Of a stretch of DNA of 26,680 nucleotides, positions 2,772 through 26,680 are shown piece by piece. Positions within the stretch are counted from its first letter, which is position 1. The number at the start of each line of letters is the position of its first letter. The notes beneath the pieces are model-generated. The model worked only from the letters and a program-made list of their open reading frames with translations, had not been told where the DNA came from and ran no database searches. The stretch covers positions 1-26,680 of IMG/VR virus record IMGVR_UViG_3300045110_000399; one strand, given 5' to 3'. The DNA is from a virus. The translations under genes were made by a program, and so were the position numbers.

Positions 2772-3824
2772 ATGGCAGACCCACTGGACGTCTCAGGCGA
2801 GAACGTACTTCCCCCGGATAGCGGCGGTGAACCGGCGGCACCCAGCGCACCGGCGCCCAATCTCTCCGAATCCCTCGAGCTCGCCTTCGACGAGTCGCCG
2901 GCGATCCAGGCGGACGTCGAAAAGACCGACGCGACCGGCGAACGCGCGCGCGACGCGCAAGGCCGCTTCGCGCCCAAGGAAGGTAGCGCGCCGGGAGTGG
3001 CGCCGGCACCGCAGGGGACCACTAGCCCCCAAGGTGCCGTCCCTCCCGCTCCCGGCGTTGCTGCCCCACCACGGGAGTTCAACGAGGCACCCGCTTCGTG
3101 GCGACCGGAGATGCGCGAGCAGTACGCGAAGGTGCCCGCCGAGATCCGCCCCTACCTGCACCAGCGCGAGCAGGAGCTCCAGTACGGCTTCGATGCCGTC
3201 GCCCGCCGCGGCAACGTCGCCGAGGCAATCCTCAACGAGTTCGTCCCCTACGCCGACCAGCTGCAGTCGGAAGGCGCCACCCCGATCACCGCCATGCGTA
3301 CCCTCCTCACCACGGCGCACCAGCTCAGGACCGGCGGGCCGGAGTTCAGGAAGGCGATCATCCTCTCCCTCGCCCAGCAGTACGGGGTGAACCTGAACGA
3401 GCCGGTCAACGTCGAGATCGCGCGCGCCGAGGCGCAGTCAGCGCAGCTCATGACCGAGAAGATGTACGGATCCGCCGCGAGCCACCAGCAGGTGCAGCAG
3501 CAGACCTCCCAGGAGTTCAACGCCTTCGCCAACGACCCGCAGAACGAGTTCTTCCCCAAGGTCCGCCACATCATGGCGGCGCTCATCGAGAACAACGTCG
3601 CGCGTGACCTCCGCACCGCCTACGACATGGCGATCGGCATGGACGCCGACATCAGGAAGACCCTCATCGAGCGCGACTACCAGGCCCGCACCCAAGCGCA
3701 GAAGCAGGCCGCTGCCGCCAACGTCTCGATCAAGGGCGCACCCAACGGCACCGGCGTGCAACCGGCCGGCGCCCCCCGCGGCGAATCCGTGCGCGCCAGC
3801 CTCGAGCGCGTGCTCAACGGTTGA
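2772..3824 (+). CDS. Putative scaffolding protein (350 aa)
   Basis: It lies directly upstream of the major capsid gene, the usual place for a scaffold. Composition fits: an acidic, Ala/Pro-rich and probably disordered first 110 residues, then a mostly helical body rich in Gln, Glu and Ala (for example LHQREQELQYGFDAVARRG), and a short C-terminal tail with SVRASLERVLNG, which could be the capsid-binding end. In known phages the scaffold directs procapsid assembly and then leaves or is cleaved. The start is the ATG at 2772, with GGCTAGGAC just upstream acting as a modest ribosome binding site. The call rests on position and composition, since scaffolds diverge quickly. Confidence 0.65.
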   Translation: MADPLDVSGENVLPPDSGGEPAAPSAPAPNLSESLELAFDESPAIQADVEKTDATGERARDAQGRFAPKEGSAPGVAPAPQGTTSPQGAVPPAPGVAAPPREFNEAPASWRPEMREQYAKVPAEIRPYLHQREQELQYGFDAVARRGNVAEAILNEFVPYADQLQSEGATPITAMRTLLTTAHQLRTGGPEFRKAIILSLAQQYGVNLNEPVNVEIARAEAQSAQLMTEKMYGSAASHQQVQQQTSQEFNAFANDPQNEFFPKVRHIMAALIENNVARDLRTAYDMAIGMDADIRKTLIERDYQARTQAQKQAAAANVSIKGAPNGTGVQPAGAPRGESVRASLERVLNG

Positions 3825-3985: not shown

Positions 3986-4237
3986 ATGGCCTTTGCCAAT
4001 GCGGCAATCTCGGACGTGATCGCGACTACGATTCAAAATCGTAGCCGCACGATCGCGGACAATGTGACAAAAAACAACGCAATCCTGCTCAAGATGTCAG
4101 AGCAGGGAAATATCAAACCGTTCGGCGGTGGGAACGTCATCCTCCAGGAGCTCAGCTTCCGCGAGAACGGGAATGCAGGGTGGTACTCGGGTTACGAGGC
4201 CCTGCCGATCGGTGCACAAGATGTGATTTCTGCGGCT
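3986..4237 (+). CDS. Major capsid protein, exon 1 (codons 1-84)
   Basis: First part of the coat protein, starting at an ATG with TAGGAG placed 5 bases upstream. It encodes 84 residues, from MAFANAAISDVIATTI to GAQDVISAA. In-frame reading then meets TAA at 4238-4240. That stop is the first codon of the group I intron, not a mutation: the last seven exon bases (TGCGGCT, 4231-4237) pair with the intron guide sequence. Joined to exon 2 at 5263, the gene encodes 324 residues with no frame change. The sequence resembles the major head proteins of BPP-1-like podoviruses, which have an HK97-type fold. Without splicing only an 84-residue fragment would be made. Confidence 0.88.
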
Positions 4238-5262
4238 TAAGAATTGGGCCGCATTAAATCGGGTGAATTGCTGGAAAGCACGGATGACCGCAGGAACTTA
4301 CATCATTGAATGCAGCGCCAACCACGCGAAGTATGTGGGGAGCTCCATTGATTGCGAGCGGCGCCTCAAGATTCATTTGCGCTCGCTTCGCATGGGGCGT
4401 CATCACAATACGCATCTGCAAAATGCGTTCGCTTCGTATGGCGAGTCTGCGTTTTCGTGGTCAGTGTCTGCGTGTCATAAGGAGCAACGGGTAGAGATCG
4501 AGTACGCCTTGATCGAGGAGTTGCTGCGAGCTGGATTTCTTCTGTTCAACGAAATCCGCTCTCCCAACGGCGAGGTGTTGCAGTTCGGCGAACTTTCACG
4601 GAAGAGAATGTCACGGAGCGGGCGTCAGAATTGGGCGCTCAATCGCGACAAGATGCTGGCGGCACTGCACGGGCCAGAAGCCTCAGAAAAACGCAAGGCC
4701 GCGCTAGCGGGCCGCGTATCTACCCTTCCGCGTGAACATTTCGTCAATGCAGCGCATCGTGTGTGGGAACTCCATCGAGAGATGCTGAGGGCGCAAGCCT
4801 CAGTGATCTCGAAGCGCAATTGGGCAAACCCGGAATACGCCAAGAAGATGAGCGATCATCGGCTGGCGATGTGGGAAACCCAAGAGCATCGTGAAAAGGT
4901 AGCTGCAACGTTTGAGCGCAATGGTAGCCGCGCAAAGCACGCCGTCGTGGTTTCCGATCTTTGGAAAGATCCGGAGTATCGCGAAAAGAATTTGGCTGCA
5001 CGCAAGGCATCAGGCTCATACGCAAAGATGATCGAAACTCGCAAGAAGAATTTGCTCCTGCGCCAATCAGCAGCCAAGACAGCGGATGCCGAGGTAACGC
5101 CGCTGTAAGGTTCAGAGACTAGGACGTGAGCAGGCAACGCGATAATCGTCCCACGAGCGCCCGACACGAAATAAAGCAGTCATTTCGTGATGATATAGTC
5201 CGACACTCCGGCACCAAAGCCGGAGAAAAGTGGATAAAAAGCCACTTGTAAGTAACTGATAG
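4238..5262 (+). ncRNA. Group I self-splicing intron in the capsid gene
   Basis: The helices were paired by eye. P1: exon 4231-4237 with 4247-4253 (GGCCGCA), ending in the conserved U-G wobble at the 5' splice site. P10: 4243-4246 (ATTG) with the 3' exon CAAT 5263-5266. P3: 4259-4264 with 5159-5164. P4: 4269-4273 with 5068-5072. Candidate P5: 4289-4295 with 5056-5062. P6: 5079-5085 with 5100-5106. P7: GACTA 5117-5121 with TAGTC 5196-5200, in the familiar AGAGACTA and ATATAGTC contexts. P7.1: 5122-5126 with 5147-5151. P8: 5165-5172 with 5182-5189. P9 hairpins: 5206-5212 with 5219-5225, and 5228-5233 with 5242-5247. The last base is G. P2 seems absent, and the extra P7.1 stem points to subgroup IA, common in phages. 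Splicing would restore the MCP frame. Confidence 0.93.
4284..5108 (+). CDS. GIY-YIG homing endonuclease, intron-encoded (274 aa)
   Basis: The N-terminal GIY-YIG nuclease domain spans residues 1-90: TYI at 5-7 and YVG at 17-19 stand for GIY and YIG, Arg27 fits the catalytic arginine, and Glu73 in IEYALI fits the metal-binding glutamate. The C-terminal half carries repeated helical DNA-binding-like units: NWANPEYAKKMS, MWETQEHREKV and LWKDPEYREKN, similar in style to NUMOD-type modules. Such enzymes cut intron-less alleles to spread the intron. The start chosen is ATG 4284, which has GGAAAG 5 bases upstream; an in-frame GTG at 4263 is possible but lies in P3/P4. The start and the 3' end lie within intron core sequence. 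Codon use is more AT-rich than the neighbouring phage genes, which suits an independently mobile element. Confidence 0.88.
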   Translation: MTAGTYIIECSANHAKYVGSSIDCERRLKIHLRSLRMGRHHNTHLQNAFASYGESAFSWSVSACHKEQRVEIEYALIEELLRAGFLLFNEIRSPNGEVLQFGELSRKRMSRSGRQNWALNRDKMLAALHGPEASEKRKAALAGRVSTLPREHFVNAAHRVWELHREMLRAQASVISKRNWANPEYAKKMSDHRLAMWETQEHREKVAATFERNGSRAKHAVVVSDLWKDPEYREKNLAARKASGSYAKMIETRKKNLLLRQSAAKTADAEVTPL

Positions 5263-5985
5263 CAATACGATATCAAGCAGGCAGCTACTGCAGTTACCAT
5301 GAGCGGCCTTGAAATGTTGCAAAATAGCGGAAAAGAACAGATTCTGGATCTGATGGAGGCGCGGATCAAGGTTGCCGAATCGACGATGCAGAACCTGATT
5401 TCTGCGGGGCTGTATTCGGATGGTACGGCGAACGGTGGCAAGCAGATCGTGGGTCTTGCGGTGGCGGTGGCGAAGGTGCCGACGTCGGGTGTGTACGGTG
5501 GCATCGATCGCGCGACGTGGACGTTCTGGCAGAACCAGGCGGCGATTGCCGTGGGTGGTGCGGCGACGTCGGCGAACATCCAGCAGAAGTTCAACGCGAT
5601 GTACGCGAAGTGCGCGCGTGGCAACGACCATACGGATCTGATCATGGTCGATAACGGCTACTGGGCGCTGTACATGGCGTCGCTGCAGAACATCCAGCGC
5701 TTTACCGATTCCAAGCTCGGCGACCTGGGCTTCCCGGCGGTGAAGTACATGCAGGCCGATGTCGTGCTCGATGGTGGGATCGGTGGCTTCGCGCCGGTGA
5801 ATGCCGCGTATTTTTTAAACACGAAATACATTTTCCTGCGGCCGCACCGCGACCGGAATTTCGTGCCGCTCGATCCGAGCAAGCGCTACAGCACGAACCA
5901 GGACGCTGTGGTTTCCCTGCTGGCGTGGGCCGGCAACTTGTGCGTGTCGGGAGCCCAATTCCAGGGCGTAGTCGCGGACGCATAG
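5263..5985 (+). CDS. Major capsid protein, exon 2 (codons 85-324)
   Basis: Continues the coat protein after splicing with CAA TAC GAT ATC AAG CAG, so the joined protein reads ...ISAA-QYDIKQAATAVTMSGLEML. The in-frame TAG at 5260-5262 closes the intron, and its final G is the expected terminal guanosine. The ATG at 5299 is internal (the Met of TMSGLEML) and has no ribosome binding site. The exon carries the bulk of the coat, including repeated Ala/Gly-rich segments and a C-terminal RPHRDRNFVPLDPSKRYSTN stretch. The stop at 5985 is followed 20-odd bases later by AAGGAG for the next gene. Confidence 0.88.
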   Translation, partial: QYDIKQAATAVTMSGLEMLQNSGKEQILDLMEARIKVAESTMQNLISAGLYSDGTANGGKQIVGLAVAVAKVPTSGVYGGIDRATWTFWQNQAAIAVGGAATSANIQQKFNAMYAKCARGNDHTDLIMVDNGYWALYMASLQNIQRFTDSKLGDLGFPAVKYMQADVVLDGGIGGFAPVNAAYFLNTKYIFLRPHRDRNFVPLDPSKRYSTNQDAVVSLLAWAGNLCVSGAQFQGVVADA

Positions 5986-14814: not shown

Positions 14815-15527
14815 TCAACGGCCACAAAAATGTGATGCTTCAGTTCAGCGGCGGGAAGGATTCGCTCGCCTGCCTTTGGCTGCTCGAGAAGCAATGGGCA
14901 GACATCTTGGTGGCTTGGGTAAATACCGGCGATGCTTTCCCCGAGACGATCGCGCAGATGCAGGCTATCAGAGCGCTTGTGCCGAATTTTCTGGAGATCA
15001 AATCAGATCAGCCGGCGCAGATCGCACGCGCTGGATACCCGGTGGATCTGCTCCCGGTCTGGGATACGGAGTTCGGGCGTTCGCTCGATGACTCGCGGGT
15101 GAATCGTTACCAGCCGCCATTCTCCTGCTGCGGGGACAACATCTGGACACCGATGCTCAAAGCGGTGCGAGAACACGGTATCACGCTCATCATTCGCGGG
15201 CAGCGTAACGCGGAGACGAAGAAGGCTCCAGTTCGCAATGGCGATACTGAGCAGGGCTTGCAGTACTGGTTCCCCATAGAGAAGTGGACTGACGCAGAGG
15301 TTGTGGCGTTCCTGGGCGAGCGAATCCCGCCGCATTACCAGTACCTGAATACCTCGCTTGATTGTAAGCACTGCACGGCGTACCTGAGCGAGAACCGGAA
15401 CAAGCTCGCGTATGCCAGGAAGGTTTGCGCCGACGTGGCGGATGAGGTAGAGCGCCGTCTGCGCAAGATTCACGCTGACTGCGCAGCGGAGCTCAGTGCT
15501 GTTCGCGCAGCGTTGGGAGAGGCGTAA
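14811..15527 (+). CDS. CysH-like PP-loop protein with Fe-S type Cys tetrad (238 aa)
   Basis: Resembles the PAPS/APS reductase (CysH) family. The PP-loop SGGKDS is at residues 13-18, VNTGDAFPET at 37-46, and a GQRNAETKK segment at 130-138. Cys106-Cys107 and Cys185-x-x-Cys188 give the CC...CxxC spacing that holds a 4Fe-4S cluster in assimilatory APS reductases. The C-terminal catalytic cysteine (E-C-G type motif) of true reductases is not seen, so sulfate reduction is doubtful. A sulfur-transfer or nucleotide/tRNA-modifying role is possible. The gene is locked between ejection-protein genes, with a 4-base overlap before and 1-base overlap (TAATG) after, so it is expressed late with virion proteins. 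Start ATG 14811. Confidence 0.8.
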   Translation: MINGHKNVMLQFSGGKDSLACLWLLEKQWADILVAWVNTGDAFPETIAQMQAIRALVPNFLEIKSDQPAQIARAGYPVDLLPVWDTEFGRSLDDSRVNRYQPPFSCCGDNIWTPMLKAVREHGITLIIRGQRNAETKKAPVRNGDTEQGLQYWFPIEKWTDAEVVAFLGERIPPHYQYLNTSLDCKHCTAYLSENRNKLAYARKVCADVADEVERRLRKIHADCAAELSAVRAALGEA

Positions 15528-23755: not shown

Positions 23756-24991
23756 GTGGCAAAAAACTTGTTGACCGATCGTGAAGTGAAAAACGCGAAG
23801 TGCCCACCGGAACTTCAGTTCCAGCGCTTCCCTGACGGTGATGGTCTGTATCTGGTAGCGTTCCCGAGCGGCGCTAAGTCGTTCCAGCTCCGCTACAAGA
23901 AGTTCAACGGCAAGGAGACGATTGCAACGCTCAAGGGCTTCGATGGACTCAAGGCCGCGCGCGAGGAAGCTGATCGGCTACGCAAGATCGTCGCGGCCGG
24001 TGACGATCCGCGGGTGCTCAAGCAGATTGAGCGTGTCGTCAAGATCGCCGCCAACGGGCAGACGTTCAAGCTCACTGCGGACGCTTGGGTCAAGGACGAG
24101 GCGCGGCGCCAGGGGTGGTCTGCCGGCCACAAAAAAGAAGTTGAGGCACTCCTTCGCAACCACCTTCACATGCTCGATCCCGTTCCCGTCACCAAGATCG
24201 TTGCCAGCATCACCGCGCCGATCCTGAAGGAGCTCGAGACCGAGGTGCCGGGACTCGCACCGCGTGTCGCGCGTCTTCTCTACGTGATCATGGACTATGC
24301 CGTCGAAGAGGGTTATCTCATACAGAACCCGTTGCCCCGGCGCCGTCGCGCGAAGAGCAAGAAGAAGAATTTCGCAGCCGTCACCAAACTCGAAGGGGTG
24401 GGGGAAATCCTGCGGCGCTTCGCGAATCTCGACACCCATGAGAGTGCACGGCGCGCGCACCTGCTGCTCGTGTTCACCGCGCAGCGTATCTCCGAGGTGG
24501 TCAACGCAAAATGGAAGGAATTCGACCTTGAGGCGGGCAACTGGGAGATTCCGCGAGAACGCATGAAGCGCAAGGACGAGGCGCGCGGGCCGCACCTAGT
24601 GCCGCTGCCGCCGGCACTACTCACAGAGATTTGCGCGTGGCGCGAAGCCGATGGAACTGCTCCCTACGTCTGCCCCGGGATTCACAGACCGAGGAAGATG
24701 GCGCTTCCCGTTGAAGGAATCGCCAAGGTCTATCGCAATGAGCTCGGGCTAACCCGGGTGCATTCGCCGCACTCTTGGCGCTCGGTGTTCAAGTCAGTAT
24801 GCAGCGATGCTGGCAAGGACTACGACACGGTTGAGGCACAACTCGACCACGCCGTAGGCTCAAAAGTCGCTGGCGCCTACGATCGCAGCCAGCGGCTCGA
24901 ACTTCGCCGGCCACTGATGACCTGGTATGAGTCGATGCTGATCGCGGCGCGTGATGGCGCCACGGTGATCCCCATCAAGAAGAAGGGTTGA
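23756..24991 (+). CDS. int: Tyrosine integrase, DUF4102/P4-type (411 aa)
   Basis: Site-specific recombinase for phage integration and excision. The GTG start at 23756 is set by AGGAG 7 bases upstream and by the family-like N-terminus. The arm-binding domain (DUF4102 type) covers about 1-95 (LTDREVKNAKCP, FPDGDGLYLVAFPSGAKSF). A core-binding SAM-like region follows, then the catalytic domain with Arg244 (TAQRISEV), His339-x-x-Arg342 (HSWR), His365 (LDHAVG) and the nucleophile Tyr375 (AYDR). All catalytic residues are present and length is normal. The 3' end overlaps the convergent AlpA-like gene by 17 bases, so the two transcripts are antisense to each other there. Confidence 0.93.
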   Translation: MAKNLLTDREVKNAKCPPELQFQRFPDGDGLYLVAFPSGAKSFQLRYKKFNGKETIATLKGFDGLKAAREEADRLRKIVAAGDDPRVLKQIERVVKIAANGQTFKLTADAWVKDEARRQGWSAGHKKEVEALLRNHLHMLDPVPVTKIVASITAPILKELETEVPGLAPRVARLLYVIMDYAVEEGYLIQNPLPRRRRAKSKKKNFAAVTKLEGVGEILRRFANLDTHESARRAHLLLVFTAQRISEVVNAKWKEFDLEAGNWEIPRERMKRKDEARGPHLVPLPPALLTEICAWREADGTAPYVCPGIHRPRKMALPVEGIAKVYRNELGLTRVHSPHSWRSVFKSVCSDAGKDYDTVEAQLDHAVGSKVAGAYDRSQRLELRRPLMTWYESMLIAARDGATVIPIKKKG

Positions 24992-25497: not shown

Positions 25498-26357
25498 CAC
25501 TCGCTCGCCGCCGCCTTGCGATCTGCGCGCTGGTGCGCGATCCGGTTGGCGACATCCTCGAGTTCCTTCTGCTGTTCAAGATCAGGCACGCCGGGGATCA
25601 TCTCGCGGGCGAGGAGGAATCCCTCTTCCGGCGCGTCCAGGGACTCTTCCAGGGCCGCTCGGACCTGCGCGTAAGTGAATACCAACCCGGGCTCCTGCGG
25701 CTCGGCCTTGAGCGTCTTTGCGCGTTTTGCCTTGAGCACGGCCGCAACCGCATCGGTCTTGTTGGTGGCTTCCGGCTGGACTTCGACGTCGATCACGTCG
25801 CGGATCTCCTCGATCGTTTGCAGGCCCATCGCGATCTCCGGCGCGTAGGCGCGCACCAGGAAGGCACCAGCACGATAGGTCGCCATGACTTCCGGCATCG
25901 TGTTCCACTTGCTGCCGGCTTTCTTCGACCAACCCTCGGCTTCGACCATCTTCCAAGTCACCCAAGCGCCGACAATTTTTTCGCCGGTCGTCTTCTCTGT
26001 GGCATAGGCCCGACATGACCAATCCTTTGATGTTGGCTTTCCCTCCCACTCGAATTTCATCGAGGTGAACCGTCCGCACTGATTGAATGTGGCAATGAGG
26101 AATTGGCCGGACCAACCCGGCTTGCCCTGCACCACATACAAGTTTTGGGCGACCATCAGTGGGTCTGCGCCAATTCTCCGCGCCATATTCAAGGCGATCA
26201 TGCAGTTGGGCAAATTATCTTGATAGGCGGCTGGAACAAGCGTCGAAGCCGCGAAGACTTTGGCTTTGCGCAGATCAAGCTCGAAGGCATCACGTTCCAC
26301 GAAGTGCGCCGGTGGAGCGGCGACGGGGGTAAAAGGTACAGTTCCTGTGTCACTCAT
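25497..26357 (-). CDS. RecT-like single-strand annealing protein (286 aa)
   Basis: The core LPNCMIALNMARRIGADPLMVAQNLYVVQGKPGWSGQFLIATFNQCGRF, then the ATEKTTGEKIVGAWVTWKMVEAEGW and KWNTMPEVMATYRAGAFLVRAYAPE segments, resembles phage proteins usually placed in or near the RecT annealing family. These pair single strands during phage recombination and replication. The start is ATG 26357, with GGAGAG 5 bases upstream. The frame is open further upstream but only through the 3' end of the HNH gene. The C-terminal 90 residues are acidic and helical. No exonuclease partner lies within the window; it could be beyond the right edge. The family assignment is moderate. Confidence 0.6.
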   Translation of the reverse strand: MSDTGTVPFTPVAAPPAHFVERDAFELDLRKAKVFAASTLVPAAYQDNLPNCMIALNMARRIGADPLMVAQNLYVVQGKPGWSGQFLIATFNQCGRFTSMKFEWEGKPTSKDWSCRAYATEKTTGEKIVGAWVTWKMVEAEGWSKKAGSKWNTMPEVMATYRAGAFLVRAYAPEIAMGLQTIEEIRDVIDVEVQPEATNKTDAVAAVLKAKRAKTLKAEPQEPGLVFTYAQVRAALEESLDAPEEGFLLAREMIPGVPDLEQQKELEDVANRIAHQRADRKAAASE

Positions 26358-26680
26358 TTCGCTCTCCGATGAAGTCTGCGAATGGAATTTGCGCATACTC
26401 GGTGATAGGCATTGCGGTCGGTGCAAAACATCACTTCTGGATCGTCGTACTCTTTGCAATACGAACATCGCCGCCAGTTGGCATTTCCGGTGGCGGCGAG
26501 TGCATTTGCTCTGCGATGAAGCATCCTGTGATAAGCCTGATTCGGGCAGATCACCAGATTCGATGTGGCGTTATTCGCCGGGTTGCCGTCGATGTGGTGC
26601 ACTACCGCGCCGACGGGAAGCGAATGCCCCAGGGCGTGCTCCGCGACAAGCCGGTGCGCGAGCACGAGCGAACCGCTGGA
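26354..26680 (-). CDS. HNH endonuclease with zinc-finger tail (5' end outside window)
   Basis: The frame runs off the right edge of the window; the GTG at 26665 is internal because family sequence continues upstream (SLVLAHRLVAEHALG). The HNH motif is clear: HRLVAEHALGHSLPVGAVVHHIDGNPANN, then NLVICPNQAYHRMLHRR, with the paired histidines, the Asn and the last His of the metal-binding fold. A treble-clef-like tail follows with Cys-x-x-Cys (CSYCKEYD) and a later Cys. This is the HNH type found as free-standing homing nucleases in phages. Its stop overlaps the RecT-like start by 4 bases (ATGA), so it is embedded in that operon. Confidence 0.82.
   Translation of the reverse strand, partial: SSGSLVLAHRLVAEHALGHSLPVGAVVHHIDGNPANNATSNLVICPNQAYHRMLHRRANALAATGNANWRRCSYCKEYDDPEVMFCTDRNAYHRVCANSIRRLHRRAK

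Follow-up and report, generated by a model that had tools for sequence, protein, structure and literature searches.

The major capsid protein (MCP) gene in an IMG/VR virus record of 26,680 bases, the whole stretch of DNA analysed and hereafter the window, is interrupted by a 1,025-nt group I intron (4238..5262, + strand), which almost certainly belongs to the mobile, self-splicing td/I-TevI type of phage T4 and separates MCP codons 84 and 85. The MCP gene halts at codon 84, where the intron starts with an in-frame TAA stop and the 84-codon capsid ORF ends at 4240, and homology to capsid proteins is found again, in frame, from 5263. Exon 1 (3986..4237, +, 84 codons) and exon 2 (5263..5985, +), both defined by tblastn to intron-less MCPs and the latter also by alignment, join in a single frame to give a 324-aa protein that matches the major head protein family PHROG 9953 over residues 4-323 (E 2.9e-110). 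The joined protein matches the MCPs of phages BUCT555, Mx8, Mx9 and others at full length, with 61% identity to that of Stenotrophomonas phage BUCT555 (residues 1-319) and 57% to that of Myxococcus phage Mx8, and in a multiple alignment the junction ISAA|QYDIK is gap-free against seven intron-less homologues. A first-pass annotation of the window had placed the insert at 4238-5262, with a stop after 84 codons and an in-frame restart at 5263, and had expected intron-less relatives to be joined as GCT-CAA; the joined frame and the gap-free junction confirm these boundaries exactly. As judged from its sequence, the host gene is the major capsid gene (PHROG 9953) of an Mx8/BUCT555-like podovirus, of which a single copy is visible in the window.

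The pairings of a group I intron were located on the + strand throughout the insert. The end of exon 1 (TGCGGCT, 4231..4237) pairs with the internal guide sequence GGCCGCA (4247..4253) to form a P1 of 7 bp that ends in a U-G pair (U4237 opposite G4247), a P1 of at least 7 bp being possible for about 5% of U positions drawn at random from the window. P10 consists of 4 bp between AUUG (4243..4246) and the exon-2 start CAAU (5263-5266), and the last intron base, 5262, is G. P3 is formed by UCGGGUG (4259..4265) and CGCCCGA (5158..5164), P4 by UGCUG (4269..4273) and CAGCA (5068-5072), and P7 by GACUA (5117..5121) and UAGUC (5196-5200), while hairpins correspond to P6a (ACAGCGG/CCGCUGU, 5079..5106), P7.1 (GGACG/CGUCC region, 5122..5154), P8 (CACGAAAU/AUUUCGUG, 5165..5189), P9 (CUCCGGC/GCCGGAG, 5206..5225; perfect in the window and poorly aligned across the family) and P9.1 (AAGUGG/CCACUU, 5228..5247; read directly from the sequence). 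The U-G pair at the 5' site, the terminal G and the P10 pairing described in the first-pass annotation are thus all present, and its P1, P3, P4, P6, P7, P8, P9 and P10 hold, whereas support for its P7.1 is moderate.

At the gathering threshold Rfam gave no match in the window. When sub-threshold matches were included, Intron_gpI was by far the best Rfam match, scoring in E-value mode 28.5 bits over 4150-5227 (E 5.4e-5) and 34.2 bits for the 3' half at 5060-5227 (E 2e-7). The predicted Intron_gpI match was therefore found, albeit below the gathering score of 50, which is a detection cut-off and not a defining biological feature; the low score is likely due to the 825-nt ORF in L5, which splits the core. 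Covariation was scored for the window reading of P3, P4, P6, P6a, P7, P7.1, P8 and P9 after aligning the window intron with 34 ORF-less relatives found via the P6/P7 string AAGGTTCAGAGACTAG, 35 introns in all. Paired cells amounted to 86.2%, compared with 70.1% in shuffles, and cells changed on both sides numbered 289, compared with 101.5; none of the 500 shuffles reached either value, and sliding the structure by 1-3 columns lowered the paired cells to 29-43%. The pseudoknot helix P3 has compensated changes in five of its seven pairs and 96.7% of cells paired, P6a is compensated in all seven pairs, P8 has double changes in seven of eight pairs (86.3% of cells paired) and P7.1 in four of five (66.5%). 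P4, P6 and P7 are almost invariant, partly because the search string selected for them, and P7, formed in all 35 introns, belonged to the selection motif. The best-matching viral introns recovered share about 67% identity with the window intron core over its length. That the insert is a group I intron is well beyond chance, and the first-pass proposal of such an intron in the MCP gene is supported by the Rfam match, the covarying P3, P6a and P8, the P1 and P10 pairings and the gap-free exon junction.

Absent from the first-pass annotation was an uninterrupted ORF of 825 nt within L5 of the intron (4284..5108, +, with a possible alternative GTG start at 4263), the 3' end of which runs through P5', P4', P6 and P6a. 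It matches the Pfam GIY-YIG family (PF01541, 38.4 bits, E 1.5e-9, cut-off 22.6), resembles PHROG homing endonucleases, including PHROG 314, over most of its length, and has I-TevI of phage T4 as its best solved match (1mk0, E 3.8e-5). The predicted product is an I-TevI-like GIY-YIG homing endonuclease. With part of the catalytic core lying inside this ORF, its translation is bound to compete with ribozyme folding. The td intron of T4 has a core with a P7.1 insertion and carries its ORF in L6. The window intron resembles it in the core architecture with P7.1 and in the endonuclease, for which I-TevI is the closest match of known structure, and P7.1 assigns it to the IA-type introns that T4-like phages carry; it differs from td in that the ORF lies in L5 and the host gene encodes the MCP, not thymidylate synthase.

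Splicing and homing, which like any competitive role we infer, would proceed as follows. The RNA would fold into the P3-P9 core, with P1, including its U-G pair, and P10 defining both splice sites, and, as structure and homology suggest, two GTP-started transesterifications would excise the intron, join GCT to CAA and restore the 324-aa coat protein. The UAA with which the intron opens lies in frame and stops translation at the end of exon 1. When relatives with an uninterrupted capsid gene co-infect, the GIY-YIG nuclease encoded in L5 would cleave that gene, and the intron, along with neighbouring exon sequence, would be copied into it during repair.

The immediate stop at the end of exon 1 and an ATG 12 codons into exon 2 would also suit a gene in pieces, in which insertion of the endonuclease split the MCP into an 84-aa protein and a product from the ATG at 5299 that assemble without RNA splicing. 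This is extremely unlikely, however, as a full group I core with covariation is present in the insert, along with P1, P10 and the terminal G, a start at 5299 would drop residues 85-96, which are aligned in all homologues, and only one amino acid over both exons differs from the near-twin phage described below. The intactness of every core pairing, of the endonuclease frame and of both exons likewise makes it very improbable that the intron is splicing-dead or degenerate and resides in a defective prophage, even though the record is incomplete, metagenomic and, at 26.7 kb, open at its ends. That the exact window intron is absent from all other contigs examined might point to an assembly chimera of the MCP gene with an unrelated intron, yet the boundaries fit P1, P10, U and G exactly, the frame is restored and similar introns occur close to this position in many related MCP genes, so that the probability of such an artefact is negligible. 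An intein is ruled out by the in-frame stop codons and the RNA core.

The mobile intron that we favour can be compared with that of a near-twin phage, IMGVR_UViG_3300047409_000242 (L033), the flanks of which share about 91-92% DNA identity with the window, and the whole MCP of which differs by one amino acid (L112I). In line with a mobile element, the 84|85 site is empty in L033 and a 931-nt insert is found instead at S106|G107, 22 codons downstream. This group I intron (L033:4070-5000) holds an HNH-type ORF (PHROG 374) and has a 7-bp P1 with U-G, a weak P10 of 1 bp and, as read from the sequence, a P7 of GCAUA/UAUGC as against GACUA/UAGUC in the window. A search of the L033 intron against Rfam gave no match; the covariance model built here, from the training set of which L033 was left out, matches it with an E-value of 3.9e-11. 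Between the window and L033, the fraction of fourfold sites changed is 0.68 over codons 8-112, 0.06 over codons 113-243 and 0.40 over codons 244-324, and codons 8-112 bracket both intron sites (window 3986-4320, in spliced codons, versus L033:3752-4069). Among 86 close pairs this mosaic pattern is an outlier, the others being far more even. At codons 83-84, L033 reads GCCGCA, which lacks the U that the window intron requires for its P1; the window-type GCGGCT is present in 21 of 252 distinct MCPs. Replacement of a tract spanning the two sites is the outcome expected of exon co-conversion, and other recombination could produce it too. That the 5' third diverges only at synonymous positions was rejected as a special feature, since few amino-acid changes at high synonymous divergence are usual for this MCP among the 86 close pairs; the pair L151/L142, for instance, has 0 changed residues there alongside 49 synonymous changes. 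Third-position G+C in the tract is lower in both the window and L033 than in intron-less relatives.

Protein searches, of each of which the best 80 loci were taken, yielded at least 228 distinct contiguous MCPs, and L033 was the sole clear interruption among the loci listed. Fifty-four further viral loci were fetched only through the 17-nt intron core string CCCACGAGCGCCCGACA, and about 18 of these hold MCPs of the same family, mostly split; since an intron string selected these loci, and the best 80 of each protein search were taken, such counts are not frequencies. Interrupted MCPs were recovered by the intron-string search and almost never by the protein searches, and split MCPs can evade gene callers and marker-gene surveys. 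The family has eight or more interruption sites, and some genes have two or three introns. Numbered in window codons, and with exact sites given for loci other than L258, L271, L295, L296, L306 and L308, the gene is interrupted at 27|28 in L269 and L272, at 28|29 in L278, at about 57|58 and 138|139 in L265, at 59|60 and 106|107 in L299, at 69|70 and 107|108 in L261 and at 84|85 in the window. Exon 1 of L264, L271, L273 and L274 ends at about codon 27, as in L269 and L272, and the L299 intron at 106|107, which is ORF-less and 235 nt long, occupies the same site as the L033 intron. Two or three covariance-model matches each were found in or beside the MCP genes of L258, L308, L296 and L295. L265 and L299 each have one intron whose continuous P1, as determined by script, is short (4 bp). 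By inspection, the intron ORFs are GIY-YIG-like at the 27|28 sites, HNH-like at 107|108 and LAGLIDADG-like at 59|60. The MCP gene family is a repeated intron target, or hot spot. Introns of the same type also adjoin or sit within SU10-type MCPs (PF17236; L266, L276, L279, L293 and L302), and one lies next to or inside a ribonucleotide reductase gene (L304). At one locus, L280:2145-4844, five covariance-model intron matches fall on one strand within 2.7 kb.

The first-pass annotation remarked that phage group I introns are best known from DNA metabolism and lysis genes; an intron in a phage capsid gene nevertheless has precedents. For a capsid intron of mycobacteriophage LittleE, RT-PCR and N-terminal sequencing of the protein demonstrated splicing (PMC3706429). 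Like the window intron, this probable group I intron interrupts the major capsid gene of a phage, carries a homing-endonuclease frame, and has U at the end of the exon and G at its own end; unlike in the window, the endonuclease frame is of another type and on the opposite strand, and the capsid gene and the host differ (PMC3706429). Tuc2009 is also cited in the same paper. Introns were also reported in MCP genes of crAss-like Delta and Zeta phages, with one MCP in five pieces (PMC7886860), and the Faustovirus MCP gene has 13-18 introns (PMC7290515). These MCP genes, like the one described here, are repeatedly targeted by group I introns, several per gene, but they belong to other virus groups with larger genomes, whereas the window represents a small Mx8-like podovirus family. 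No report of introns in PHROG 9953/Mx8-like podoviruses was found in the open-licence literature. MCP introns are thus already known, and what is new is the PHROG 9953 case within a newly seen hot spot.

A more speculative reading, which we consider possible and on balance unlikely, is that the capsid gene of Mx8-like podoviruses serves as a battleground of rival introns with GIY-YIG-, HNH- and LAGLIDADG-like ORFs, mainly over codons 27-140, where a replaced or synonymously recoded patch might protect a phage from the other's endonuclease while it attacks the rival's capsid gene. An intron endonuclease acting as a weapon between co-infecting phages was described for PhiPA3 gp210 versus PhiKZ, in a paper that also cites the competition of SPO1 and SP82 (PMC11620839). 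There, as here, related phages have intron-encoded endonucleases, which in those systems act on the rival's gene; in contrast to PhiPA3 and PhiKZ, the window and L033, as possible competitors, carry two different introns at MCP sites separated by 22 codons. The pair provides a natural setting for studies of intron homing, co-conversion and phage-phage competition.

The neighbourhood of the capsid gene includes a portal gene (PHROG 12082, 68-2272), tail and lysis genes and, where a scaffold gene usually lies, a gene without a family match (2772-3824). As a virion needs many MCP copies and the mRNA would first have to self-splice, capsid supply would be tied to the efficiency of the ribozyme. 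A PAPS reductase-like gene (14838-15527, +; PHROG 424, PF01507) lies inside the structural module. The phage is probably temperate, as the window encodes a tyrosine integrase (23756-24991, +). At the contig edge, an HNH_3 endonuclease frame (26354-26680, -) possibly represents a free-standing homing endonuclease.
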